Of a stretch of DNA of 26,003 nt, positions 1 through 12,479 are shown in pieces. Within the stretch, counting starts at the first letter, position 1. Each line of letters begins with the position of its first letter. A program made the translations under genes and the position numbers. The stretch lies in the IMG/VR virus record IMGVR_UViG_3300021961_007851, positions 1 through 26,003 of that record; one strand, written 5' to 3'. The DNA is from a virus. The notes under the pieces were generated by a model. That model was not told the origin of the DNA, ran no database searches, and saw only the letters and a program-made list of their open reading frames with translations.

Positions 1-1694
1 CTGCTGTTGAACAAGCATGTTACTTAATTGATTATCCAATAAAATCAAACAGTTTATTCCCACATATCAATTCACAAGAACAAGAAAATAAATTCATTGA
101 TCTTGTAATTCGAGCATATAATGATCCATATCTTCATCAACAAAAGATGTATTATTGTAATATCATCAAAGATATTTGCGGATGGGATTCGGTTGCATTA
201 CAATGGAAACAACATTTCTATAGAAAATTAAATCAATTCCTTTCCATTGAAGAATATAGAAAGGTTCATCAAATCAATCATGAAGTACATAAGATTTTTG
301 GTAGAAGATTCAGTAATAAAGAAGAATGGGTTGAACCTAAGAATCCAGAACAAAAAATAGTAATCATTAGTACATTATATAATGCAGAAAATTATATCGA
401 GAAATGTATATCATCTGTAGCATCTCAGGATTATAATAATTACTCTCATATCATCATCAATGATTGTTCAACCGATAATTCTAAAGAAATAATAGAGAGG
501 TTGATAAATTCATTTCCAAAAGAATTGAAAGATAAATTCATTCTTTTGAATAGAGAAAAGAATGAAGGTGCGGTTTATAATCAGATCATGAGTATTCGTG
601 ATCCATTCATTCAAGATGATGATATCATCATGATTCTCGATGGTGATGATTGGTTGGTGAATGAACCTGATATTTTTGATTTTTATAATAACCTATATCA
701 TAAAGATATTGAGTTCAGTTATGGATCATGTTGGTCCTTGGTTGATAATATTCCATTGATCTCTCAACCCTATCCTGAGAAGATTAGAAAATCAAAGAAA
801 TATAGAGAACATAAATTTAATTGGGGAATACCTTATACCCATTTGAGAACATTTAGAAAGAGGTTGATCAATAAGATCGATGATTCCGTTTTCTTGGATG
901 AGAATGGTGAATGGTTTAGAGCGGGTGGTGATGTTGCAACCTTCTATAATATCATTGAGCAAGCGGATCCCGATAAGGTAAAATGTGTTTCAAAGATTGT
1001 TTACAATTATAATGATATGAACCCGTTGAATGATTATAAGGTTAATTCTGAAGAGCAGAATAAGAATTCAAAATTTATAAATGAAGGTGTTGTGAAGATG
1101 GGTAAAAAGAAAATATTGATCGCTATTCCTACAGCAAAATATATCGAGTGTGAAACATTTAAATCAATCTATGATTTGCAAATCCCAGATGATTGTGAAG
1201 TAAATTTCCAATACTTCTATGGTTACCAAATAGATCAAGTAAGAAATTTGATAGCGCATTGGGCAGGAGGTTATGATTATTTGTTTTCTGTTGATAGCGA
1301 TATGAAATTTACACCTGATACATTAGTTAAATTGCTGAACCATGATAAAGATATAGTAAGCGGATTATACATTCAAAGAAACCAAAACCATATTTTAGAA
1401 GTATACAAAGCAAATGATTCTGGAGGAAACACTAATATTCCATATGATGAAATCAAAGATAAAGGATTAGTTGAAATAGAAGCTTGTGGGTTTGGATGCG
1501 TTTTGATAAAATCAGAAGTGTTAAGAAAAATAGGTTATCCTCAATTCGTTTATAAATCAGCAATAGATCATAAAGATACTATATCAGAGGACATCTATTT
1601 TTCAAGAAAAGCTAAAGAGAATGGATTTAAAATATTTGCAGATACTTCTATACTATGTGATCACATAGGCTCAACGACTTACAGGGTGAAATAA
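1..1694 (+). CDS. Multidomain glycosyltransferase, 5' end outside the window
   Basis: Transfers sugars, probably building a surface glycan or decorating a phage or host molecule. The frame is open to the left edge (first full codon at base 3), so ATG 147 is an internal Met and 563 residues are visible. The first ~75 residues (AVEQACYLIDYP... to GWDSVALQWKQHFYRKL) resemble the C-terminal end of a GT-B enzyme. From about base 355 a GT-A family-2 domain follows, with VIISTLYNAENYIEKC, IINDCSTDNS and ILDGDDW (acidic metal/nucleotide-sugar motif). From base 1098 a further GT-A-like domain begins (KKILIAIPTAKYIE) with FSVDSDMKFTPDTLVKLL as its DxD-like site. It ends in TAA overlapping the ATG of the next gene by one base, so the two are probably co-translated. 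The GT-A assignment is firm, the GT-B remnant is tentative, and the substrate is unknown. Confidence 0.85.
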   Translation, partial: AVEQACYLIDYPIKSNSLFPHINSQEQENKFIDLVIRAYNDPYLHQQKMYYCNIIKDICGWDSVALQWKQHFYRKLNQFLSIEEYRKVHQINHEVHKIFGRRFSNKEEWVEPKNPEQKIVIISTLYNAENYIEKCISSVASQDYNNYSHIIINDCSTDNSKEIIERLINSFPKELKDKFILLNREKNEGAVYNQIMSIRDPFIQDDDIIMILDGDDWLVNEPDIFDFYNNLYHKDIEFSYGSCWSLVDNIPLISQPYPEKIRKSKKYREHKFNWGIPYTHLRTFRKRLINKIDDSVFLDENGEWFRAGGDVATFYNIIEQADPDKVKCVSKIVYNYNDMNPLNDYKVNSEEQNKNSKFINEGVVKMGKKKILIAIPTAKYIECETFKSIYDLQIPDDCEVNFQYFYGYQIDQVRNLIAHWAGGYDYLFSVDSDMKFTPDTLVKLLNHDKDIVSGLYIQRNQNHILEVYKANDSGGNTNIPYDEIKDKGLVEIEACGFGCVLIKSEVLRKIGYPQFVYKSAIDHKDTISEDIYFSRKAKENGFKIFADTSILCDHIGSTTYRVK

Positions 1695-2407
1695 TGGAAC
1701 CAATTTACAATCAAGAAACAGCACAGAAAGAATTTATTCTTCATGGAGAAGATTGGATTTTACGTAAATTAAACGGACAACTAACCACAATATTTGATGT
1801 AGGTTGTAATATTGGAGAATGGACTAGACTAGCCAGATCTATACATCCAGAAACAAATATTCATATGTTTGAAGTTGTTCCTGATACATTTGAAAATATG
1901 AAAAAGAACATAACACTGGATGATAAAATGTTTGCCAACCCATTTGGTCTTTCATCGGAAGCTGGAACACTAGCAATGAAGTACAAACCTTCTTATAGCG
2001 CAGTCAGTACGTGCCTTAAGATGTTGAGAGTTGATGACTCAGAACATAGAACTGGACTAGTCTTTAAAGGCGATGACTACGTTGAAAGCAGAATGATTGA
2101 TAGGATCAACTATTTAAAAGTTGATGTGGAAGGTGCTGAGAAGATGGTGTTCGAAGGATTTACCAATACACTAAAACAAAACAAAATTGATATAATTCAA
2201 TTTGAATATGGATACGCCTGTATATTAACTAAATGGCTATTAGTTGATGCGTATGAACTATTAAGACCGTATGGATTCATACTTGGTAAATTTAGTAATG
2301 ATAAGATCGATTTTCATGAATATGCATTATGGAGAGAAGATTTTCAAGGACCAGACTATTTCGCAGTCCACGAATCTAGAAAAGACTTAATAGATTTATT
2401 ACGTTAA
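1694..2407 (+). CDS. FkbM-family SAM-dependent methyltransferase
   Basis: A 237-residue class I methyltransferase that would transfer a methyl group from S-adenosylmethionine, typically to a sugar or other small hydroxyl substrate in the FkbM family. The SAM-binding motif I is IFDVGCNIGEWTRLA (residues 33-47), followed by the acidic end of strand 2 in HMFEVVPDTFENMKKN (57-72). The FkbM hallmark LKVDVEGAEKMVFEGF sits at 141-156. Its ATG shares one base with the stop of the glycosyltransferase (TAATG), so glycan assembly with O-methyl capping is a reasonable reading of the pair. The stop codon lies in the palindrome TTAA, which also holds the stop of the opposing gene at 2404. The family call is strong; the substrate is not visible. 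Confidence 0.88.
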   Translation: MEPIYNQETAQKEFILHGEDWILRKLNGQLTTIFDVGCNIGEWTRLARSIHPETNIHMFEVVPDTFENMKKNITLDDKMFANPFGLSSEAGTLAMKYKPSYSAVSTCLKMLRVDDSEHRTGLVFKGDDYVESRMIDRINYLKVDVEGAEKMVFEGFTNTLKQNKIDIIQFEYGYACILTKWLLVDAYELLRPYGFILGKFSNDKIDFHEYALWREDFQGPDYFAVHESRKDLIDLLR

Positions 2408-2661
2408 AAAGTACCGCAATCAATGTCACCAGATATAAGCTCATATGTCATAGGTTTGATTTCATAAATCTGAGTAGCTGAATTGTAAATCAATGTAGCA
2501 TTGTTTGATAAGTCTACGGCTTCAACGTCGTTGATATTTTGTAACGCAGCAATTTGGATTACTTGATTTTTTAAAGTAATTGGCGATGATGTAGTAAGAA
2601 CACCACCAAAATTATTTACTTTAACGTTCTGTCTATGCTGCTCGCCTAATACTACTTTCAT
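2404..2661 (-). CDS. Small protein of unknown function, coupled to the BppU-like gene
   Basis: An 85-residue protein starting MKVVLGEQHRQNV that I do not recognise. It is short, has no cysteine pair or membrane segment, and looks like a small beta-rich domain (alternating hydrophobic stretches such as QVIQIAALQNI and ATLIYNSATQIYEI). The ATG overlaps the TGA of the upstream gene in ATGA (2658-2661), so translation is probably coupled and the two products may act together. In phages a downstream partner of a BppU-like domain protein is often another virion component, but that is inference. The stop shares the TTAA palindrome at 2404-2407 with the convergent methyltransferase. The gene is probably real because of its coupling. 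Confidence 0.6.
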   Translation of the reverse strand: MKVVLGEQHRQNVKVNNFGGVLTTSSPITLKNQVIQIAALQNINDVEAVDLSNNATLIYNSATQIYEIKPMTYELISGDIDCGTF

Positions 2662-2984
2662 CTAGTTACTTCCGGAGTAATAGTAACGATTCCTTCTAGT
2701 ATCCTAGAGACTACTCCGGCTAATGTTAATTCACAATCATACACATAACGACCAGCAACCATGTTTGCAGTTGCGTTTGCAGTCAATGCAAGAGTCACTT
2801 TACCAGCAGCTTCATCGATTGATACTGTAAAAGAAACTGAATTTGAAGAGGTATAGTGCTTGCGTATCTGAGCAGCACCAGCATAACCAGAAAGATCCAT
2901 TGCCGCCCCATCATCGTCAGTGACAGTGATGGTTGTACTGAAGTTACTTCCTTGGTCTACAACTAAGTTTGCTTTAGTAGCCAT
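2658..2984 (-). CDS. Small BppU-N-like virion domain protein
   Basis: A 108-residue protein with the layout of the N-terminal beta-sandwich found in phage baseplate/tail proteins of the BppU type. It has an opening strand with a DQGSNFSTTITVTDDDG turn, then the signature MDLSGYAGAAQIRKHY (residues 29-44), and a C-terminal strand pair ending RILEGIVTITPEVTR. Here the domain stands alone with no receptor-binding extension. It is the first gene after a 152-base gap that carries an exact TATAAATA late promoter 29 bases upstream of the ATG, so it is probably a late, virion-associated product. The downstream 85-residue gene overlaps it by 4 bases. The BppU-like call rests on the DLSGYxxxxQIRK pattern only. 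Confidence 0.6.
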   Translation of the reverse strand: MATKANLVVDQGSNFSTTITVTDDDGAAMDLSGYAGAAQIRKHYTSSNSVSFTVSIDEAAGKVTLALTANATANMVAGRYVYDCELTLAGVVSRILEGIVTITPEVTR

Positions 2985-3074: not shown

Positions 3075-3140
3075 TTAAAAGAAGATGCAAAATTGCACTA
3101 AAAATAGTACTTTCACCGATATCATTTGTGTAGTCTTCAT
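3075..3140 (-). CDS. Possible 21-residue hydrophobic peptide coupled to the methyltransferase
   Basis: An ATG overlaps the TGA of the methyltransferase gene in ATGA (3137-3140). It opens a 21-codon frame reading MKTTQMISVKVLF then LVQFCIFF, ending TAA at 3075-3077. The peptide is strongly hydrophobic and could be a membrane micropeptide. The start would need coupled re-initiation, since no separate ribosome binding site is seen. Frames this short arise easily by chance, so I list it only as possible. Confidence 0.2.
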   Translation of the reverse strand: MKTTQMISVKVLFLVQFCIFF

Positions 3141-3928
3141 GATACACCGTTCAATTTTAATAATGTTTTCAAAGCTAATGATCCGCCATGAATAACATAT
3201 GTTTTCATGTCTATGATATTTATATCATGTTTATCTAAAAAAATTTTTAAAGATTTTTCATTCCATTGATTTAGATGTTCATCACAAACATTTGGTGCGA
3301 GTGGGTACTCTTCTTTATATGGAACTTCTAAGTATAAAAAAGACTGAGAATGCATATGAGTCTTTAACTGTTCAATTAAACTAGAAGGATCTGACTTATG
3401 TTCTAAAACATGAGCACAAATTATAAAATCAAAAAGTTTATCAATTGAATCTAGATGTTTTACTCCATCTATTAATATTGGCCGTCCTATATCATAAACA
3501 TATCTATCTGCATGCTTAAGACTTGAAGGAATCATATCACCCGTATCACCACCAAAATCGAGTACTGAATTAATTTTTGAAAAAGATACATGTTTTTGCG
3601 CTAAAGACTGAATCGCAAATTGTCTTTTTTTAATATACAACATCGATTCAAAAATAATTTTTAATCCTTTATAAAAAGGAGTGCATATATCTCTTTGTTT
3701 ATTATACGTTTCATCTCTATATCCAGTATAATAATTTATTTCTTCTTGTTCAGTTAGTCTAAGACCACTAAAAATTAAAGAACAGTTATTACATACGCAT
3801 TTTTCATTATCTATATCTGCTCCTGGATCTATTCCAAACGATCTCCACACCATTATACGTGTCAATGATCCAGGCTCTTTTGATATATCTTTTGATTCAC
3901 ATGAAGGACAGTAATCAATTTTTACCAT
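3137..3928 (-). CDS. Class I SAM methyltransferase with N-terminal zinc ribbon
   Basis: A 263-residue SAM-dependent methyltransferase. Residues 7-49 form a likely zinc ribbon (CPSC at 7-10, CVCNNC at 44-49), as in sugar C-methyltransferases and other enzymes of the Methyltransf_13/Methyltransf_23 type. Motif I is VLDFGGDTGDM (122-132). The strand-4 region is FDFIICAHVLEHKSDP (166-181), followed by FLYLEVPYKEEYPL (197-210) and DEHLNQWNEKSL (217-228). Members with this architecture methylate nucleotide sugars or small metabolites; the substrate here is unknown. It lies 111 bases downstream of the TauD-like gene, past an AT-rich hairpin. The ATG at 3928 follows AAGGAATGGAAAAAGCAT on the minus strand, a weak ribosome binding site. 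The family call is strong. Confidence 0.85.
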   Translation of the reverse strand: MVKIDYCPSCESKDISKEPGSLTRIMVWRSFGIDPGADIDNEKCVCNNCSLIFSGLRLTEQEEINYYTGYRDETYNKQRDICTPFYKGLKIIFESMLYIKKRQFAIQSLAQKHVSFSKINSVLDFGGDTGDMIPSSLKHADRYVYDIGRPILIDGVKHLDSIDKLFDFIICAHVLEHKSDPSSLIEQLKTHMHSQSFLYLEVPYKEEYPLAPNVCDEHLNQWNEKSLKIFLDKHDINIIDMKTYVIHGGSLALKTLLKLNGVS

Positions 3929-4039: not shown

Positions 4040-4984
4040 TCAAGTTTTCGAAACATTATTTTTTTCAAAGTTGAATATCAATCTATGAAGGAGTCTATCT
4101 TCATCTTCATAAGGATCTCTAGCATGTTGTGTGCAGACTGTATCAAATAATACAACATCTCCATCATCCCAATAATGACTATACTTATATTTATCTTTCA
4201 CTATAATGGATTCTAACCATTGAGAAATTTGAATACTTTCTCTTAAAGATTTTCCTTTAAAATATAACAACGTATTGTATTCAAACGCAAATCCTGGGAT
4301 ACCCATGATAGAATTTTGAATAAGAGGTTTATCAACATTATTATAATGATCATCTGTGAAATTTAAAAAGATTTCTTTATAAGTTAAATTAGGATAATCT
4401 TTAGTTTCATCACTTCTTGTTCTGTTTGTTACACCGGTGATAATTCTTTTCTTTTCTTTTTTTAATTCTTTCTGAACTGTTTCATAAAGCTTTTCGTTTT
4501 TATACTCATAAACCAAAGAATCTACAAATTTTTTATCTTCAGAAGAAAGTAAAGAATATTGAGTTACCGTTTCTAAAATATAAGTAACAGATTTGACTGT
4601 ATTTTGGCCATGTAATGCTAAAATTCTATAGGGATAAACAAATGCTGGAGTATCCCTATGCCAATTCAATTTTTCTTTTATAGGTACTATCCCCAGCTGT
4701 ATACCTAAATCATTTTTTTTACAATTTACTTTTAAAACACCTGGGTATTCATCATAAGATATATTTTTTATAAACTGATTAAATTCTTCAATTCCTTCAT
4801 TACCAAAAAAATGTTGTATAACTTTATCCATATTATTTAAAGTCAATATATCACACTGTTTAAATACATCCCAAAAACTTTCTAAAGTAAAAGCTTTCTT
4901 TTTTACAACTACAATAACGTTTTTCTTAAACGCTTCTTTAATTGCGTCTAAAGTAAATTCATTCAAAACAGCAACATAATCCAT
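4040..4984 (-). CDS. TauD/TfdA-like Fe(II)/2-oxoglutarate dioxygenase
   Basis: A 314-residue protein with the iron-binding facial triad of TauD/TfdA oxygenases. HRD sits at 109-111 in LNWHRDTPAFVYP, and the distal histidine is H287 in WDDGDVVLFDTVCTQHARD. R301 in RLLHRLIFNF is placed to bind 2-oxoglutarate, as in the RRxxHR end of TauD. Between them lies an inserted lysine-rich helical segment (about 165-185) and the conserved-looking GIPGFAFEYN (228-237). These enzymes hydroxylate small molecules, using O2 and 2-oxoglutarate; the substrate is not identifiable. A good ribosome binding site, AAGGTGAT, lies 7 bases before the ATG, just past the stop of the desaturase gene 17 bases upstream. The pair is therefore probably one transcription unit. 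Length is normal for the family. Confidence 0.85.
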   Translation of the reverse strand: MDYVAVLNEFTLDAIKEAFKKNVIVVVKKKAFTLESFWDVFKQCDILTLNNMDKVIQHFFGNEGIEEFNQFIKNISYDEYPGVLKVNCKKNDLGIQLGIVPIKEKLNWHRDTPAFVYPYRILALHGQNTVKSVTYILETVTQYSLLSSEDKKFVDSLVYEYKNEKLYETVQKELKKEKKRIITGVTNRTRSDETKDYPNLTYKEIFLNFTDDHYNNVDKPLIQNSIMGIPGFAFEYNTLLYFKGKSLRESIQISQWLESIIVKDKYKYSHYWDDGDVVLFDTVCTQHARDPYEDEDRLLHRLIFNFEKNNVSKT

Positions 4985-5001: not shown

Positions 5002-5754
5002 TTAACAAAATATTTTTTTTGATATGTTTCCTAATAAATCATATTCGTACCATTTTTTTCCTAAAACAGGATCATTTGGAAATTTATGATGATTATTTTG
5101 ATATCCTTCTCCAAACATAAGCCAACCAACTAACAAATTATTTTTACTGTTATCATTCGTTGGATAATTTACATATCCACTTTTGTGTGATAAAATAGCT
5201 ATACCATATCCTGTAGCAAACCAGATACAAACGATAGGTATTGCATAACAAATCATAAAATATTTTATACCCATCAATAATAAAAATGAAACATAAATCG
5301 CATGTATAAGCCAATATGCATTATGAAATCTTACCACTAATTTGTCATTAAAAAAATCTTTACCATATAGTAAACTTACATTATTTCGTTTGCGTAAAAT
5401 ATCCCAATATAGTAAAAATGTGTTTTTGAATAAAGGACTGTGGGGATCTTCTACCGTATCGCTTTTCTTGTGATGTTTCCTATGAGTCATAGCCCATTCT
5501 ATAGCACTACCTTGCCCGGCCAATGTTCCTAAAATAAGACCTATAAATTCTAGCCACTTTGGCATTTTCTTAAAACATCTATGAGAATAATGGCGATGAT
5601 GAATCAACGATATTCCTATAGCGCCAAATAGAAAATAAAAAATAAAAGAAAAAAGATAATAATTTAAAGGAAAATAAAAAAGTCCACCAATCACAATAAT
5701 ATGTAATATTGATAGATGTAATATTCTTAAGTATGGAGTAATTTTACTAAACAT
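5002..5754 (-). CDS. Membrane fatty-acid (acyl-lipid/acyl-CoA delta-9 type) desaturase
   Basis: A 250-residue integral membrane di-iron desaturase that would introduce a double bond into fatty acyl chains, using O2 and reductant from the host. Hydrophobic segments lie at about 11-50, 66-80, 146-165 and 166-190. The histidine boxes are HRHYSH (53-58) and HRKHH (91-95, in EWAMTHRKHHKKSDTVEDPH). The third is QNNHH (219-223, in FGEGYQNNHHKFP), where the usual first histidine is glutamine. It is slightly shorter than many delta-9 enzymes (~300 residues) but the core looks complete. The ATG overlaps the stop of the upstream gene by one base (TAATG), and a TauD-like dioxygenase follows 17 bases downstream. 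The family call is very secure; substrate and regiospecificity are not. In a phage late operon this is an auxiliary metabolic gene. Confidence 0.92.
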   Translation of the reverse strand: MFSKITPYLRILHLSILHIIVIGGLFYFPLNYYLFSFIFYFLFGAIGISLIHHRHYSHRCFKKMPKWLEFIGLILGTLAGQGSAIEWAMTHRKHHKKSDTVEDPHSPLFKNTFLLYWDILRKRNNVSLLYGKDFFNDKLVVRFHNAYWLIHAIYVSFLLLMGIKYFMICYAIPIVCIWFATGYGIAILSHKSGYVNYPTNDNSKNNLLVGWLMFGEGYQNNHHKFPNDPVLGKKWYEYDLLGNISKKIFC

Positions 5755-6825: not shown

Positions 6826-7914
6826 TTATGAATATGGTCCTATTAAGGACGGCAAATTAACTGAACTTGCTGGGTTTATGTTTGTTGGCGCTGGTACAGG
6901 ACCCCAACCAAATACAGCTCTTCCTGTTGCTCCTCCATTTCCTCCGGCGCGTGTTTGGCTAGCACCACCTGGGTTAGGACCAATTGTAGATGTTGTTCCT
7001 GTACTACCAGCAGATCCAGCAGCGCCTCCTGCACCTCCTCCACCTCCTACTAGAGGAACAGTTATTGGAGATTTAGAAGGATTACTAAATGTTGTTGGAT
7101 TAGGTGAACTAGCCGCTCCGGCATTAGTACCTCCATCATTTCCTACTTGTGCTCCTGCACCTCCTGATGATGGACTTCCTGCTCCACTTGGTGCAGGAGC
7201 ACCGTGTGCTCCTCCTCCTCCACCCCCTCCTGGTGCTCTTGCGCCCAAAAAAGATTTATTAATTGCTGGAAAAGTAGCAGGAAAGTAACCATAAACAGCC
7301 CCTCCTCCACCTCCACCTCCGCCCCCGCCTTTAATTCTTCCTGCGGGGGGTAGATTTAATGTTATAGGGAATCCTAATCTCAAACCCGGACTTCCGGCCG
7401 ATCCTGCAGATCCAACTGTTGCTGTAGCAGTAACACCGGATATATAGCTGGGTGGTGTCCCTGTCGTAGTTGAAAATGTAGTAGTACCTCCTGCGCCACC
7501 AGCACCACCTTTTCCTACAATTTCTCCATTAACAGTTAGAGTTATGGTACTTGGAGCTGGAATAACTTTTCCTGGATTTGTAGGAGGATTTGGAGATATC
7601 CTTAATCCATAACCAGGCGCACCAGCCACAGTTGAATATACTACTACACCAGGGTTTATCACAAGTGTTGCTTCTACTTCATCGGTTCCATTCCATCCAT
7701 TCGATATCATGTCGTTAACTAAGTCATAATCAGATTCATTTACAGTAAATGTTTTATTAAAAACAAATTCATTAGTGTGGACCTGTCTCCACGCTGTGCC
7801 GTCCCATATGTATGAATATTTGATCAATCGCCACGTAGATACGGATGAATCATAGATATGAATCTTTTTTACTTCTCTCCAACTGCCATCATATACGTGT
7901 GTTTTTGTTACCAT
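6826..7914 (-). CDS. Glycine-rich putative tail-fibre adhesin
   Basis: A 362-residue protein, probably a receptor-binding tail component. Residues ~5-48 hold three imperfect copies of a Tyr/Trp motif (THVYDGSWREVKK, IHIYDSSVSTWRLIK, YSYIWDGTAWRQVH), a pattern seen in marine phage fibre proteins. After a short mixed domain (about 49-130) the rest is dominated by glycine motifs. These include GKGGAGGAGG, ten consecutive Gly (bases 7300-7329), seven consecutive Gly (7210-7230), VGGGGGAGGAAG and AGGNGGATG. They are separated by variable Ser/Thr/Pro/Ala segments. This resembles the glycine-rich adhesins of the T2/S16 gp38 kind, where Gly motifs pack as polyglycine II helices and the loops between them contact the receptor. 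It follows the fibre genes, as expected for a distal adhesin. The homology to gp38 is by composition and context only. Confidence 0.6.
   Translation of the reverse strand: MVTKTHVYDGSWREVKKIHIYDSSVSTWRLIKYSYIWDGTAWRQVHTNEFVFNKTFTVNESDYDLVNDMISNGWNGTDEVEATLVINPGVVVYSTVAGAPGYGLRISPNPPTNPGKVIPAPSTITLTVNGEIVGKGGAGGAGGTTTFSTTTGTPPSYISGVTATATVGSAGSAGSPGLRLGFPITLNLPPAGRIKGGGGGGGGGGAVYGYFPATFPAINKSFLGARAPGGGGGGGAHGAPAPSGAGSPSSGGAGAQVGNDGGTNAGAASSPNPTTFSNPSKSPITVPLVGGGGGAGGAAGSAGSTGTTSTIGPNPGGASQTRAGGNGGATGRAVFGWGPVPAPTNINPASSVNLPSLIGPYS
7300..7329 (-). repeat. Run of ten glycine codons
   Basis: Ten consecutive GGN codons within the adhesin gene make a G-rich minus strand and C-rich plus strand in an otherwise AT-rich genome. 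A second run of seven lies at 7210-7230. Both are candidates for length change by slippage and for G-rich secondary structure. Confidence 0.8.
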
Positions 7915-7918
7915 ATGC

Positions 7919-9064
7919 TTATCTAAAATAAGGTCCTAATAGCCAGCAAACTACCGAATGTCTTGTTCCTCTAATAATATCTTCTACGCCATGCAAAAGA
8001 AAAGAAGGAAACACAATGATCGTTCCTTTTGATTGGTGCGGATAAATTTTCTGATCTCCCATTTGTAAATAAAATTTACCACCTTCAAAATCATCATTTA
8101 AAAAAGCTAGTACAGTTAATTTCCTACAGTCATTATGAGGATAAGACATAAAAGTATCAATGTGTGTTTTATATCTTCCTTCTTTTTCATATTTTAAATA
8201 TTCAATTTGAACACAATTATTTATATCAAATCTCCAAGCTTGTTGATTGGCAACGAATCCTGAACCTATAAGTTGAAACCCTATAGGGTCATGAATAGGT
8301 ATAAGGTGTTTTTCAACATTGCGTATAGTTTTATTCAAATGTCCTAAATCATCTCCTCCAATTAAACCCTTTTCTAAATCATACTTAGAATATTTTCCAA
8401 TTACTTGATCACAAAAATCATTACTAATAGCGTTCTCGAAAAACCAATAATTGACTGTATCTTTTTCATTGGAACAAATGACTTGTTTTTTTGTCTCTGC
8501 AGGAGTACCTATTTTTTCTCTGCAATCATATTTTTCATCTTTATAAGGACCTTCTTCATCTACATAATGAAGAAAAACTTGACACTGCCATTCACCATCA
8601 AACTCATCTCTCCAATGATAAATCTCTGTTCCTTTGTATAAAACTACATCTCCTACTCCTAATATCAATGGATTAGATTGATCAATTTCATTTTCATTAT
8701 TAAAATATATAGGCCAACTTTTTTCATCAAATCCTAATGTAATCGTAGCACTTATTTCGCAAGCAGGTCTATCACTATGTATTTCCAGCTTTTCACCTTT
8801 TCTATAAATTCTAGCATAGCTATAAGTAGGAATTAATTTTTTTCCGCTAACATCTGAAAAATAATCTTTCAATTGATCTAACAAAGAATCAAAAAATGGA
8901 TTACCGTAAACAGAATCGGACAGAGGGCATTGTTCGTCTTTGATAGTTTCTTTATTTTCATATAAAGAAAAAAGGAGATCACAACCTTTCTTACAATCTT
9001 CGGGAGATATTACACCCGCAATTACAACATATTTTTTGTCATTAAAATCATCAGTAATATTCAT
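7919..9064 (-). CDS. Tandem two-domain 2-oxoglutarate/Fe(II) oxygenase
   Basis: I place the start at ATG 9064 (381 residues, MNITDDFNDKKYVVIAG), because GGAG sits 5 bases before it and the upstream gene stops at 9078. A longer frame starting with TTG at 9124 would overlap that gene by 47 bases. Two oxygenase domains lie in tandem. Domain 1 (about 10-170) has YARIYRKGEKLEIHSDRP with the H96xD98 pair, and GTEIYHWRDEF with H150, followed by QVFLHY. Domain 2 (about 205-381) is prolyl-4-hydroxylase-like: YEKEGRYKTHIDTF (H301xD303), DDFEGGKFYL, then FPSFLLHGVEDIIRGTRHS with H358 and R368. Both iron sites look intact. Related enzymes hydroxylate proteins or small molecules. The gene sits between a repeat fibre and the Gly/Pro-containing adhesin, so a virion protein could be the substrate, but that is inference. 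Confidence 0.85.
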   Translation of the reverse strand: MNITDDFNDKKYVVIAGVISPEDCKKGCDLLFSLYENKETIKDEQCPLSDSVYGNPFFDSLLDQLKDYFSDVSGKKLIPTYSYARIYRKGEKLEIHSDRPACEISATITLGFDEKSWPIYFNNENEIDQSNPLILGVGDVVLYKGTEIYHWRDEFDGEWQCQVFLHYVDEEGPYKDEKYDCREKIGTPAETKKQVICSNEKDTVNYWFFENAISNDFCDQVIGKYSKYDLEKGLIGGDDLGHLNKTIRNVEKHLIPIHDPIGFQLIGSGFVANQQAWRFDINNCVQIEYLKYEKEGRYKTHIDTFMSYPHNDCRKLTVLAFLNDDFEGGKFYLQMGDQKIYPHQSKGTIIVFPSFLLHGVEDIIRGTRHSVVCWLLGPYFR

Positions 9065-9077
9065 AATAACTCCATTA

Positions 9078-11270
9078 TCAATAAATGTATACGATATCTC
9101 CGGATTGCGGAGAAGGATTTGCAACAGCTGGATCAGTTGTTGTAGCAGTTGCGACTATAGTTCTTCTGCCTTGAGCGTTTGTGTTACCAGTTATAGATGC
9201 GGTTGATTCTATCTGCAAAGTATTATTGACTGAAATAATGGTGTTATTTACACGCATTCTTTCAACACCGTTGGTAGTAATACCAAGAGTATCTGCTGCT
9301 GGTCTATATATGCCTAAATTAGTATCACCAACCCATGAAAATCCAGGCACGCTAACAGTATCGCTTCCATAGGTTCTAATCGATGCAGGAATTATTTGTG
9401 TATTGACCGAGGTGTTACCAACTTTAATCAAATTATTAGAAGCACTAAATCCGTTTGTAGTGGCGCTTATCGTGCCAATCGTTAAACTTGCAGCCGTACC
9501 TATAGAAACATCTCCAGTAAAATCACCAGTATTAGCATTTAAAATCCATCTTTGAGTAGAACCACCTAACGAAGTACCTACTGTATTAGAACTTGGATAA
9601 ACACCGGCACCGGCTGCTGTAGACTTAATAACTACACCGTTAGTAGGTCCTATGTCTACGTTTGATGTGCTGTTACCAACTACAATTGATGTATTGGTGA
9701 TAGTGACACCATTAGTGGTACCAACACCACCTCCCATATTTAATGTTCCAGTGAGAGCAGTTGTATTAGATAATGTTACTGCACCAGTAACTGCTAATGT
9801 ATTAGATAATGTGGTCGCACCAGTAACACCAAGAGTATTAGATAATGTTGCAGCCCCAGTTACAGAGATAGTATTTGATAATACAGCGGCACCGATAATA
9901 TTTGCTGCGCCATCTACTTTCAATCTTGTATCTGGAGAAACTGTACCTATACCTACTCTTGAATTTACAGAGTCTATGAATAATCCACTAAAACTTACAT
10001 TGCCAGAAACATAGTGAGTACACGCGGTAGTAACCATCAGGTTACCGGAGACAGTTAGGTTATTTGAAAATGTAGCAGCGCCGGTCACGGCTATTGTGTT
10101 TGATAACGTAGTGGCTCTAGTTACACCTAACGTTCCACCAACAGTGACGTTGTTGCTCAAAGTGGCTGTATTGGTGACTGCTAATGTATTAGATAGTGTT
10201 GCTGCACCAGTAACTGCTAATGTGTTAGATAATGTGGCTGCACCGGTGACACCTAAAGTGTTTGATAACGTTGCTGCACCTGTAACGGCTATTGTATTAG
10301 CAAACGTAGCCGCGCCAGTAACAGTAACTGTATTTGATATTCTTGTTACCGTTATAACATTGCCACTTATTGAAAGATTATTTGCAAGAGTGACAGCACC
10401 TGTAACAGCTACTGTATTAGCAAATGTAGCGGTGTTCGTTACTGCTAATGTATTAGATAAAGTCGTTGCACCAGTAACTGCTAATGTATTAGATAAAGTG
10501 GCTGCACCAGTAAGTGCTAATGTGTTAGAAAGAGTAGCTGTATTCGTAACTGAAATAGTGTTACCAAATGTTGCCGCGCCAGTAATTGTTACGGTGTTAG
10601 AAAAAGTAGCGGTGTTCGTTACTGATAGTGTATTTGAAAGAGTAGCAGCACCTGTAACACCTAATGTATTAGATAAAGTGGTTGCACCAGTAACTGCTAT
10701 TGTATTTGATAATGTAGCAGCTCTAGTTACACCTAATGTTCCAGCAACGGTAACATTATTACTAAAAGTAGCTGTATTTGTTACTGATAGTGTGTTGGAT
10801 AAAGTGGCTGCGCCAGTTACAGCAATCGTATTAGAAAGAGTCGCTGCTCCAGTTAAACCTAAAGTATTAGATAGTGTTGCTGCGCCTGTGACTGTAAGAG
10901 TAGTAGAAAGGTTTAAACTATTACCGCTAATAACCCAACGATTAGTAGAGTTGCCTAAAGGTATCGTATTACCAACTGGATTAAGATAATTATATATTAG
11001 CGTGTTTGCAAAATGACCATTAAATTGATAAGTAGTATTACCTATATTCAATCCATCACTAGCAGGCAATAAATCACCGCTATATTGGGTAGCTGAAAGA
11101 GATATTACTTCACCATCAATATAATAATTACCATTAATATGAAAGATATCTCCATCTAAATATAAATTAGCCCTTGAACTTGTATTTCCAACATAAACTG
11201 TGTTTGCGAATTCAGCATCACCACCTGTTACTAACAATCCATTCTCTGTTTTAAACTTGGTATTAGCCAT
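9078..11270 (-). CDS. Tail fibre protein built of 12-residue repeats
   Basis: A 730-residue fibre protein. The N-terminal ~125 residues (MANTKFKTENGLLVTGG... to RWVISGNSLNLSTTLTV) include a pattern ending in LPLGNSTNRW-type sequence (GNTIPLGNSTNRW) that recurs near the C-terminus as VGTSLGGSTQRW. From residue 128 to 407 come 21 copies of a 12-residue unit (consensus TGAATLSNTLAV) broken by short inserts, and four more at 459-506. Between them is the fibre motif FIDSVNSRVGIGTVSPDT. The C-terminal part has TNGVERMRVNN and ends SPQSGDIVYIY, with no S74 chaperone domain seen. Such short-period repeats are expected to form a trimeric beta fibre. The ribosome binding site AGGA lies just before the ATG (AGGAACATATG), 9 bases after the previous stop. 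Which T4 fibre it replaces is unclear. Confidence 0.8.
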   Translation of the reverse strand: MANTKFKTENGLLVTGGDAEFANTVYVGNTSSRANLYLDGDIFHINGNYYIDGEVISLSATQYSGDLLPASDGLNIGNTTYQFNGHFANTLIYNYLNPVGNTIPLGNSTNRWVISGNSLNLSTTLTVTGAATLSNTLGLTGAATLSNTIAVTGAATLSNTLSVTNTATFSNNVTVAGTLGVTRAATLSNTIAVTGATTLSNTLGVTGAATLSNTLSVTNTATFSNTVTITGAATFGNTISVTNTATLSNTLALTGAATLSNTLAVTGATTLSNTLAVTNTATFANTVAVTGAVTLANNLSISGNVITVTRISNTVTVTGAATFANTIAVTGAATLSNTLGVTGAATLSNTLAVTGAATLSNTLAVTNTATLSNNVTVGGTLGVTRATTLSNTIAVTGAATFSNNLTVSGNLMVTTACTHYVSGNVSFSGLFIDSVNSRVGIGTVSPDTRLKVDGAANIIGAAVLSNTISVTGAATLSNTLGVTGATTLSNTLAVTGAVTLSNTTALTGTLNMGGGVGTTNGVTITNTSIVVGNSTSNVDIGPTNGVVIKSTAAGAGVYPSSNTVGTSLGGSTQRWILNANTGDFTGDVSIGTAASLTIGTISATTNGFSASNNLIKVGNTSVNTQIIPASIRTYGSDTVSVPGFSWVGDTNLGIYRPAADTLGITTNGVERMRVNNTIISVNNTLQIESTASITGNTNAQGRRTIVATATTTDPAVANPSPQSGDIVYIY
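9753..9896 (-). repeat. Second block of fibre 12-residue repeats (4 units)
   Basis: Four 36-base units encode IGAAVLSNTISV, TGAATLSNTLGV, TGATTLSNTLAV and TGAVTLSNTTAL. They continue the array seen at 10050-10889 after an unrelated 51-residue interruption containing the RVGIGTVSPD motif. Confidence 0.85.
10050..10889 (-). repeat. Main block of fibre 12-residue repeats (21 units)
   Basis: Twenty-one units of 36 bases encode TGAATLSNTLAV-like dodecapeptides, with variants TNTATFSNTVTI and TRAATLSNTIAV. A six-residue half-unit (AGTLGV or GGTLGV) is inserted twice, 202 residues apart, each time between TNTATxSNNVTV and TRAxTLSNTIAV. A 16-residue spacer (SGNVITVTRISNTVTV) lies between units 14 and 15. 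Neighbouring copies use different synonymous codons, so the array is not freshly amplified. Confidence 0.9.
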
Positions 11271-11279
11271 ATGTTCCTA

Positions 11280-12479
11280 CTAAGCTTTGATTAAAGTGGC
11301 AACTACTTTTGAAGCTGAAGTTATTGAATTTTGTTTGAATTTTAATTGAACATCAGATCCACTTATAGCAACACTAAAATCTCCTGGATCTGATGTTGAA
11401 GGAGACACAACTGTTGCGTATACTGTTATATATGGATCTGTACCATCATGGGCTAAAACCATTTCGGCAGCTAATGTATTACCGCTCAACGTCTTTACCT
11501 GCGCATTGATTTTTGCAGTAGAATATGTCGTTTTATCGAATGAAAATATAGTTAGAGCACTAGATGTATCTGATCCTAAATTAGTATTTGCTAATGAAGT
11601 CATCACATAATCATTATGTACTGAATTAGATGAGAACGTTACTATATTTGAAAAAGTAGCATTCCCAGTAACAGTAAGGGTGTTTGCTAGCTTTACAACT
11701 CCAGATACATTTGCTGTTCCAGAGACATGTAAGTTAGCATCTGGCGTAGTTGTTCCTACACCAACTTTGTTGCCTGCGCTATCTACAAACAACGTTGCAG
11801 TATCAAACGCTACGTTACCGCCAATCGTATGCACTGTTCCTGTTACATCTAAGTTTGATGCAATCTGTGTTAAGTTTCCACCTAAAACTACATTAGAGGT
11901 GGTTCCATTTCCACTAGCAGTTATTAAAGTAATTGTACTATTAGCTTTAACACTCGTATTACCGGTGATGATGGTTATACTATTGACGCTGGTGTTTGTT
12001 GCAGTAACGAATAGATCTGTTCCATCAACAATTGTATTTGTTACACTTGAATTACCTAGAACAGTTATAGCAACAACCGAAGTATTGCCCTTGATTGAAC
12101 TGTTACCAGTGATGGTAATAATTTGTCCATTGACTTGAGTGTTTGCGTTGTCTATCCATACGTTTGCATGACAATTAACAACAGAAGCATTAGCTGTAGA
12201 GTTTCCACCAATGAAAGTATTTGATGTGATAGTTAATAACGCTGAACCAGAATCACCAACGTTACCTCCACGTAATTCATTTGTAGCTACAAGTGTGTTT
12301 GCACCAAACCTGCCATTCAGCTGTGCTCTTCTTGGCTCCGCTGTAGTACCGGTATTTGCGGTTGCATCATTGGCCGTTATTATCTCAGTGGATAATGCGT
12401 ATAAAACTTCATTAGTTTTATTAACCCATAATTGAAATGTGTCAGAAGTTACATCTACATTAGCTACAGTTCTTGACAT
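11280..12479 (-). CDS. Fibre/virion structural protein with NT-rich repeats and phage C-terminal domain
   Basis: A 399-residue virion protein. The N-terminus (MSRTVANVDVTSDTFQLWVNKTNEVLYALSTEIITAND) resembles the attachment region of T4-like marine phage structural proteins. The middle (about 60-250) is Asn/Thr-rich with loosely repeated GNTSV/GNSSV/NTSVNSITI units suggesting a beta fibre. It is followed by the fibre motif LFVDSAGNKVGVGTTTPDA, shared with the next gene downstream. The last ~110 residues (SALTIFSFDKTTYSTAKINAQVK, AAEMVLAHDGTDPYITVYATV, and FSVAISGSDVQLKF) match a C-terminal beta domain common in marine T4-like fibres. The ATG overlaps the stop of the 70-residue gene by one base (TAATG), and the next fibre gene starts 9 bases after its stop. 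Confidence 0.75.
   Translation of the reverse strand: MSRTVANVDVTSDTFQLWVNKTNEVLYALSTEIITANDATANTGTTAEPRRAQLNGRFGANTLVATNELRGGNVGDSGSALLTITSNTFIGGNSTANASVVNCHANVWIDNANTQVNGQIITITGNSSIKGNTSVVAITVLGNSSVTNTIVDGTDLFVTATNTSVNSITIITGNTSVKANSTITLITASGNGTTSNVVLGGNLTQIASNLDVTGTVHTIGGNVAFDTATLFVDSAGNKVGVGTTTPDANLHVSGTANVSGVVKLANTLTVTGNATFSNIVTFSSNSVHNDYVMTSLANTNLGSDTSSALTIFSFDKTTYSTAKINAQVKTLSGNTLAAEMVLAHDGTDPYITVYATVVSPSTSDPGDFSVAISGSDVQLKFKQNSITSASKVVATLIKA

Follow-up and report, generated by a model that had tools for sequence, protein, structure and literature searches.

What does a virus oxidise with two different 2-oxoglutarate (2OG) and Fe(II)-dependent oxygenase domains that are joined in one polypeptide and encoded among its fibre genes? 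The question is raised by a 381-residue protein encoded within a viral contig of 26,003 nucleotides (IMG/VR record IMGVR_UViG_3300021961_007851), the whole of which we call the window. A preliminary description made from the sequence had put forward hydroxylation of virion proteins as an attractive idea, with a two-step oxidation of one small molecule as the alternative.

The oxygenase gene and its surroundings

The gene lies on the minus strand (Table 1). Between 7919 and 9064 the forward strand contains 19 stop codons, and the reverse strand is an open frame from an ATG at 9064 that is preceded by GGAG five bases upstream. An alternative TTG start at 9124 would give a protein of 401 aa, but overlaps the fibre gene. 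The enzyme is part of a run of minus-strand genes, in the order second fibre-like gene, repeat fibre, enzyme and adhesin-like gene, with tight spacing; the repeat fibre ends 13 bases upstream of the enzyme, and the Gly-rich gene starts 4 bases downstream. The preliminary description had given the same interval, neighbours and pair of 2OG domains, and every residue it named (H96, D98, H150, H301, D303, H358 and R368) is present in the protein. Its further suggestion of structure prediction has now yielded two beta-helix domains, as described below.

Table 1. The two-domain oxygenase gene, its parts and its nearest neighbours in the window
Feature	Position	Strand	Evidence
Two-domain 2OG-Fe(II) oxygenase gene, 381 aa	7919..9064 (stop codon included)	-	Open frame; fused homologues
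N-domain, residues 1-189, phrog_2954 family	8498..9064	-	phrog_2954 E 2.6e-46; AF2 model; VIA with residues 1-194
N-domain iron motif H96-S-D98	8771..8779	-	Sequence and alignments
N-domain distal iron ligand H150	8615..8617	-	Sequence and alignments
Flexible linker, residues 190-203	8456..8497	-	pLDDT <50 at residues 190-202
C-domain, residues 204-381, P4H-like, PF13640	7922..8455	-	Pfam E 2.5e-13; vCPH 5c5t Z 19.2
C-domain iron motif H301-I-D303	8156..8164	-	Sequence and alignment of fused proteins
C-domain distal iron ligand H358 to R368	7961..7993	-	R368 at the usual place of the 2OG-binding base
Repeat fibre gene, 730 aa, directly upstream	9078..11270	-	PHROG matches of structural or unknown function
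Second fibre-like gene, 399 aa, upstream	11280..12479	-	ORF and PHROG scan
Gly/Pro/Ala-rich adhesin-like gene, 362 aa, directly downstream	6826..7914	-	Weak phrog_10745 match

The 362-aa protein contains 75 Gly and 33 Pro, and from its composition and place we infer that it is an adhesin. Its only match is a weak one, to a PHROG of unknown function, and it has no relatives in the phage collection, for which the low-complexity filter is perhaps the cause. Comparison with a related locus (L002) shows how the genes of the run have diverged. The enzymes are 74% identical over their full length, with dN/dS values of roughly 0.14 for the N-domain and 0.09 for the C-domain at a dS near saturation, and both domains look to be under purifying selection. 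The 730-aa and 399-aa fibres are 53% and 77.5% identical to their counterparts. For the adhesin only the N-terminal half aligns, with 48.5% identity over ~195 aa.

Elsewhere in the window, a large protein (21077-16161) has matches in 1,077 phage records. The eight of them listed are DLP_6, Cr30 and the Sinorhizobium M7/M12/M19 group, which we take to be T4-like, with 30-35% identity over 55-76%. Further downstream in the same direction, past the adhesin and two short ORFs, are two more oxidative enzymes, a fatty-acid-desaturase-like protein (5002-5754, minus strand; PF00487, 6.5e-18) and a TauD-type dioxygenase (4040-4984, minus strand; PF02668, 8.5e-18). Judged by eye from the translations, the regions 147-2407 (plus strand) and 3137-3928 (minus strand) contain glycosyltransferase-like, FkbM-methyltransferase-like and methyltransferase-like genes, possibly a surface-modification group.

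The C-domain is a prolyl-4-hydroxylase-type oxygenase

Residues 289-375 match PF13640 with a score of 51.2 bits (E 2.5e-13) against a curated cut-off of 27. The domain contains an HxD...H triad followed by a basic residue about ten positions after the distal histidine (H301, D303, H358 and R368), and these four residues, together with H96, D98 and H150 of the N-domain, are invariant in 29 aligned fused proteins. With a profile of C-type proteins the first match is the viral collagen prolyl hydroxylase (vCPH) of PBCV-1 (8.2e-13), followed by PKHD-type enzymes and other prolyl 4-hydroxylases (P4H). A profile of the fused proteins matches the bacterial-type enzyme 3itq (1.6e-11), which is labelled prolyl 4-hydroxylase and which we take to be that of B. 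anthracis; the HxD motif, the distal histidine, an arginine in the following loop and a late tryptophan all align. Y298, R314 and W374 presumably correspond to the tyrosine, arginine and tryptophan framing the proline in known prolyl hydroxylases. In the predicted structure the best fold match of the domain by VIA is again vCPH (Z 19.2, rmsd 2.8, 160 aligned residues). By sequence and predicted fold the C-domain is a prolyl-4-hydroxylase-type oxygenase, as the preliminary description had recognised, and its activity is predicted.

The N-domain is a diverged oxygenase of a family labelled ferrochelatase

The N-domain matches no Pfam family. Its clear PHROG matches are phrog_2954 (2.6e-46) and phrog_3531 (3.4e-32), both named 'ferrochelatase', with a weaker match to the 2OG family phrog_81, and it is 33-43% identical to six members from named phages. 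By tblastn the family is found in 156 of 50,697 phage records, nearly all of which (154) bear the name Synechococcus, cyanophage, Prochlorococcus or Pelagibacter, and many of the matches listed carry the ferrochelatase label. Membership of this family was beyond what the preliminary description could have seen.

We examined in detail 14 of the 156 records, chosen from the tblastn lists irrespective of motif. H96, D98 and H150 are kept in all 14 proteins, as are R85, Y87, R99 and R152. In a wider alignment each of the three ligands is found in 156 of 157 sequences, where conservation of H96, D98 and R99 is partly built in because most of the loci were selected with an HxDR pattern. Unlike the C-domain with its R368, the N-domain of the window has no Arg or Lys ten residues after H150. 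The place of the basic residue that binds the 2OG carboxylate varies between subfamilies of 2OG oxygenases, and the invariant R85, R99 and R152 of the 14 proteins are candidates for the role. To judge from these sequences, if the N-domain binds 2OG at all, it must do so through a different invariant arginine.

An AlphaFold (AF2) model of the fused protein (pLDDT 89.2, pTM 0.52) comprises two beta-helix domains connected by a loose linker. Residues 1-194 of the model match SnoN (Z 17.6), the 2OG-family oxidoreductase 6n1f (17.0) and human P3H1 (16.5) by VIA. We also modelled a standalone contig homologue (L078) that is 63% identical to gp58 of HTVC033P, a 'putative ferrochelatase', with a pLDDT of 94.7 and a pTM of 0.90. 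Foldseek matches of this model are led by P. putida P4H and PHDs, followed by FtmOx1, SnoN, vCPH and others, and VIA gives SnoN (Z 17.2; 2.8 Å, 180 residues), PHD2 (16.2; 2.7 Å, 169) and P4H (16.1; 2.6 Å, 162). The double-stranded beta-helix fold is thus present in the predicted models of the N-domain. At the level of sequence the family gives weak matches to a Fe2+-dependent dioxygenase model (0.003), WelO5 (0.074), 2OG-FeII_Oxy_2 (0.1) and AlkB (0.14), and among these are the unrelated Baculo_PP31 (0.025) and tom40 (0.078). Profiles of the family found nothing significant among PDB sequences, the best being a Naegleria Tet-like protein (0.22). A recent internal duplication finds no support, since comparison of the profiles of standalone N-family (A6) and C-type (A2) proteins aligned only 29 columns with a probability of 2.3. 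The two domains are related by fold only.

Taking together the conserved ligands, the lack of a ferrochelatase profile (below) and the models of the fused and standalone proteins, we conclude that the N-domain is a second, highly diverged 2OG oxygenase of the family labelled 'ferrochelatase', with a predicted activity.

The label of the phrog_2954 family is therefore probably wrong. In addition to the oxygenase models and the iron ligands kept in 14 of 14 proteins, no ferrochelatase profile was found at E up to 10 in nine members searched against Pfam and NCBIfam. Four standalone proteins of named phages, one of them among the nine, likewise have none in Pfam at E up to 1. No chelatase fold is among the 50 Foldseek matches listed for the standalone model, although absence there does not exclude one. 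The same protein of S-SCSM1 is a '2OG-Fe(II) oxygenase' in GenBank and a 'ferrochelatase' in RefSeq, and S-CREM1_80, one of the 14 relatives, carries a 2OG oxygenase annotation already. Enzymes of this class work with non-haem iron. That the N-domain is truly a ferrochelatase supplying haem or iron to oxygenases, as the names of phrog_2954 and of RefSeq entries would have it, is extremely improbable given the confident beta-helix model, the conserved HxD...H, the missing profile and the conflict of labels, and on these grounds of profile, motif and fold we reject the function.

The label has had consequences in the literature, here cited from the accessible parts of the articles. PMC11561400 treats ferrochelatase phrog2954 and 2OG phrog61 as enriched and often co-occurring auxiliary metabolic genes of seasonal marine viruses. 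PMC9599517 also uses the label, reporting that pelagiphages encoding ferrochelatase always had a 2OG oxygenase next to it, and explains this through haem. PMC6832022 places phage ferrochelatases and oxygenases among the genes of highest pN/pS. Many phage 2OG proteins resemble human EGLN3 according to PMC12774648, in whose main text, as far as accessible, ferrochelatase does not occur. We found no published statement that phage ferrochelatase is a misannotation in a search that reached few subscription journals. Should these genes encode oxygenases, the explanation through haem no longer applies, and the co-occurrence in those reports is that of a single oxygenase pair.

A second label may also be wrong. 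Two cyanophage proteins named 'DNA endonuclease V' (L172:1649-2254 and 2235-2855, minus strand) match 2OG-FeII_Oxy_3 (4.2e-5 and 7.8e-5), just under the Pfam cut-off; a third of that name, Mosig_00058, has no Pfam match. Many neighbouring proteins match phrog_274 and phrog_2297, which carry this name.

The two domains occur together

The viral loci, 84 in total and 72 when made non-redundant, are the 80 best matches out of at least 600, with four others added. The set leans towards the type of the window, and the ORFs are our own greedy calls. Within this set 27 of the 72 loci are fused and 45 unfused, and a C-type oxygenase lies within three genes of the N gene in 39 of the 45, a number that is the same with a profile from fused C-domains alone. 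The C gene is found only directly after the N gene, i.e. in fusion order, in L004, L041, L042, L043, L046 and L060; most other paired unfused loci have it before. Several of the six loci that lack a C-type neighbour end close to the N gene. In L005 repeat proteins are followed by the N gene, then by the C gene and a Gly-rich gene, with terminase- and portal-like genes downstream as judged by eye.

The significance of this pairing was assessed by permutation. A first calculation, with loci of fewer than 12 genes dropped (17 of 45 kept), gave 16 of 17 loci against a permuted mean of 6.4, but the random genes near contig ends favoured pairing. We therefore applied a full-window rule as edge control, which keeps 14 of the 27 fused and 15 of the 45 unfused loci. 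All 15 unfused loci have the pair within three genes, against a permuted mean of 9.0 (0 of 2000 permutations).

Fused forms are present in three of the 14 named phages (S-T4, ACG-2014f and S-SCSM1). Among 73 loci from bacterial genomes two are fused, and in 23 a C-type gene is no more than three genes away; some of these contigs look phage-like by eye. Pairs also occur in bacterial contigs that have no fibre genes. In some bacterial contigs the N gene lies near glycosyltransferases (L129, L131) or a TPR-sulfotransferase (L099). In L146, L148 and L149 it is beside proteins that combine Sel1 repeats with a 2OG-oxygenase domain. No single pathway emerged from the bacterial contigs, and pairs in such company may have surface-glycan or other protein-modification roles.

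Since the domains are fused or close in most viral loci examined, it is very likely that they act on one substrate or pathway. That 2OG oxygenases are common in cyanophages is already known from PMC9602691, the accessible part of which reports 24 such ORFs in S-SCSM1, including one that combines two 2OG-type domains. What is new, as far as our literature search reaches, is how widely the pair occurs, whether fused or adjacent.

The fused form is associated with Gly-rich fibres

We defined a Gly-rich ORF as one of at least 100 aa with 17% Gly and two GGG or GGxGG motifs, a definition set after the neighbourhoods had been viewed. In the same set of loci (the best 80 of at least 600 plus four) such ORFs make up 18 of 69 genes at positions -1 to -3, upstream of the fused genes, 1 of 73 at +1 to +3, and 3 of 174 that are four or more genes away. 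Sixteen of the 27 fused loci have one within three genes. A first permutation, with loci of fewer than eight genes dropped (20 of 27 fused and 34 of 45 unfused kept), gave 12 of 20 fused loci against a mean of 5.6 (0 of 2000), with a contig-end bias in favour of the link. With edge control the effect is weaker, 9 of 14 loci against 4.4, and is still reached in 0 of 2000 permutations; the enrichment is unchanged (0 of 2000) at Gly thresholds of 12, 15 and 20%. Unfused loci exhibit no enrichment, with 6 of 34 against 6.8, and 2 of 15 against 2.1 when edge-controlled.

Family matches agree. We scanned 144 of 148 listed neighbours of fused genes, and the 25 commonest families include 15 matches to Gly_rich_2, 11 to 2OG-FeII_Oxy_3, five to 2OG-FeII_Oxy_5, three to Mtd_N and two to collagen; the tail-fibre PHROGs 863 and 21412 have 18 and 16 matches. 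A scan of 111 neighbours from 25 of the 45 unfused loci gave 33, 19 and four matches to 2OG-FeII_Oxy_3, 2OG-FeII_Oxy_5 and Gly_rich_2. In contigs like the window the fused form is genuinely linked to adhesins, and this link does not extend to the family in general. The statistical association with Gly-rich fibres is new within the reach of our literature search.

The named phages are divided. A labelled virion gene lies in the 4-7 kb flank in seven of 14 (S-SSM5, Mosig, HTVC008M, HTVC033P, HTVC023P, S-SCSM1 and Sf-CH1a), and none is labelled there in P-SSM7, Syn30, S-PM2, ACG-2014b, ACG-2014f, S-CREM1 and S-T4. These last include the fused relatives of ACG-2014f, beside nrdAB, and S-T4, neither with a labelled fibre in its flank. 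In P-SSM7 (L165:4001-4573) and Syn30 (L167:3881-4480) a standalone N gene has dam directly on one side and a clamp-loader gene (gp62 in P-SSM7) on the other; these are replication surroundings, unlike those near fibres. The preliminary description had held that relatives far from any adhesin gene would speak against a role in virion modification. This holds in part: ACG-2014f, S-T4, P-SSM7 and Syn30 have no labelled fibre in the flank covered, the standalone forms are not enriched near Gly-rich genes, and pairs occur in bacterial contigs. The fused form is enriched near Gly-rich genes, and the interpretation that the description offered is partly supported.

Two further features of these neighbourhoods were observed. 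Two genes downstream of the fused enzyme in L033 (1759-2589) and L047 (1525-4137) there are Ser-rich collagen-like (GxS) proteins that are nearly devoid of proline; their Gly-X-Y runs are 33 and 62 triplets long. A collagen-type substrate was set aside on finding these neighbours Ser-rich and nearly proline-free. A family of small proteins starting MKALISP or MAKKALVST is encoded a little upstream of the fused enzyme in 12 of the 27 fused loci, and also in the unfused L045, usually after a Gly-rich fibre (e.g. L026:1551-1844 and L022:3722-4036). The L022 member has a weak match to phrog_1787, of unknown function, and the L026 member none; the family is possibly a fibre chaperone.

What might the pair modify?

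Our leading proposal, to which we would give a probability of about 0.4, is that the pair putatively hydroxylates virion proteins, either a fibre or the Gly-rich adhesin. Each domain would bind Fe(II) and 2OG, split O2 and place a hydroxyl group on a side chain of a fibre or adhesin protein from the same operon, in the infected cell before assembly. The outcome would be a stiffer polyglycine or polyproline-II-like shaft, or acceptor sites for further decoration. The proposal is supported by the invariant triads, the two beta-helix models, the linkage of the domains, the fibre context and the tight gene spacing; from these we infer the enzymatic activity, the common substrate and the choice of fibre or adhesin as that substrate. 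Against it, half the named phages and two of the three fused relatives among them have no labelled virion gene nearby, the standalone forms lack Gly-rich enrichment, and pairs occur in fibre-free bacterial contigs. Also counting against it are the missing Arg or Lys ten residues after H150, the near absence of proline in the collagen-like neighbours of L033 and L047, the late setting of the Gly-rich definition and the lean of the loci towards the type of the window. The late-gene position might simply reflect a site into which cargo genes tend to insert.

Of the two proteins the adhesin has changed faster (48.5% identity over its N-terminal ~195 aa against 74% for the whole enzyme), so a shared target could only be a conserved part. 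This favours a target in a conserved part of the fibre or in the N-terminal half of the adhesin.

We tentatively suggest that a paired and often fused 2OG system, one half of it concealed by the ferrochelatase name, may hydroxylate receptor-binding fibres of phages, an oxygen-dependent post-translational maturation of adhesins, comparable to the hydroxylation of collagen, that would stabilise polyglycine or polyproline-II shafts or create acceptor sites for sulfation or glycosylation. Hydroxylation of fibres or virions in phages was not stated in the titles and abstracts that we found, most subscription journals being outside the search. Were fibres the substrate of the pair, adsorption of the phage would be tied to the oxygen, iron and 2-oxoglutarate of the host cell, and virion proteomic data of a kind already collected could reveal the modification; PMC9602691 reports a virion proteome of S-SCSM1 with 974 peptides.

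The main rival to hydroxylation of virion proteins is chemistry on a surface glycan or small molecule, in which a sugar, lipid or small molecule, perhaps part of a host- or phage-made surface glycan or of a secondary metabolite, would be oxidised twice in succession. SnoN, the best single structural match of the N-domain (Z 17.6 and 17.2 in the two models), is an epimerase of an antibiotic pathway, and the desaturase-like and TauD-type genes lie downstream of the adhesin in the window. The glycosyltransferases and TPR-sulfotransferase of the bacterial contigs are also in keeping with this chemistry, as are a sulfotransferase-like neighbour (by eye, with one Sulfotransfer_3 match among the 144 neighbours) in the fused viral locus L018, a carbamoyltransferase adjoining the pair in S-SSM5 and a tryptophan halogenase in Sf-CH1a. 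In its accessible part, PMC7824862 proposed secondary metabolism or capsule decoration for a cyanophage cluster of carbamoyltransferases, a halogenase and 2OG enzymes, and that of PMC9602691 repeats the idea that phage 2OG oxygenases affect host metabolism via 2-oxoglutarate levels. We nevertheless think this explanation rather unlikely, as the relatives of the C-domain by sequence among solved structures are prolyl hydroxylases and hydroxylases of the PKHD type, and among the 25 commonest families no biosynthetic one recurs near the fused genes as the tail-fibre families do.

Hydroxylation of EF-Tu, a ribosomal protein or some other protein of the host, leading to altered translation during infection, would account for locations away from fibres. 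The whole-length fold matches include OGFOD1 and Tpa1, whose entry describes modification of the ribosomal protein Rps23, and the P. putida P4H structure is that of a complex with EF-Tu. This would not explain why Gly-rich ORFs and tail-fibre families are enriched next to the fused form, and we consider it improbable.

It is very unlikely that the pair acts on DNA or nucleotides in the manner of AlkB, TET or JBP, in repair or base modification. The position of the standalone genes of P-SSM7 and Syn30 is consistent with such a role, as are UvsW (two of 111) and UvsY (one of 111) among the neighbours of unfused loci. The accessible part of PMC9146016 cites a repair proposal for 2OG oxygenases beside uvsX, uvsY and uvsW, and reports that those of S-SZBM1 are not between uvsY and uvsW. 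The matches to Tet_JBP (0.084, C-domain) and to Naegleria Tet and AlkB (N-family, above) are all insignificant, and the fused form is mostly in fibre surroundings.

Comparison with known systems

The two-domain protein has several partial precedents. PHROG families 2954 and 3531 of cyano- and pelagiphages clearly match the N-domain, which in the window is fused to a P4H-like domain. Another parallel is ORF248 of S-SCSM1, likewise a single ORF with two 2OG-type domains according to the accessible part of PMC9602691. It is possibly the fused relative gp124 of that phage, a protein of 453 aa labelled 'ferrochelatase' in RefSeq and encoded a few genes after a short tail fibre. The C-domain resembles vCPH of PBCV-1 and the bacterial P4H enzymes of B. 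anthracis and P. putida in profile and fold matches. It has ~21% identity to vCPH, and has Arg where the aligned 3itq has Lys at the 2OG site; the window protein differs from all of these in carrying a second oxygenase domain. The best whole-length Foldseek matches of the fused model are the ribosomal prolyl hydroxylases Tpa1 and OGFOD1, with TM-scores so low (0.32-0.36) that the same packing of domains does not follow. Tpa1 and OGFOD1 have two beta-helix domains in one chain, only one of which is catalytic, whereas the protein of the window has both triads intact.
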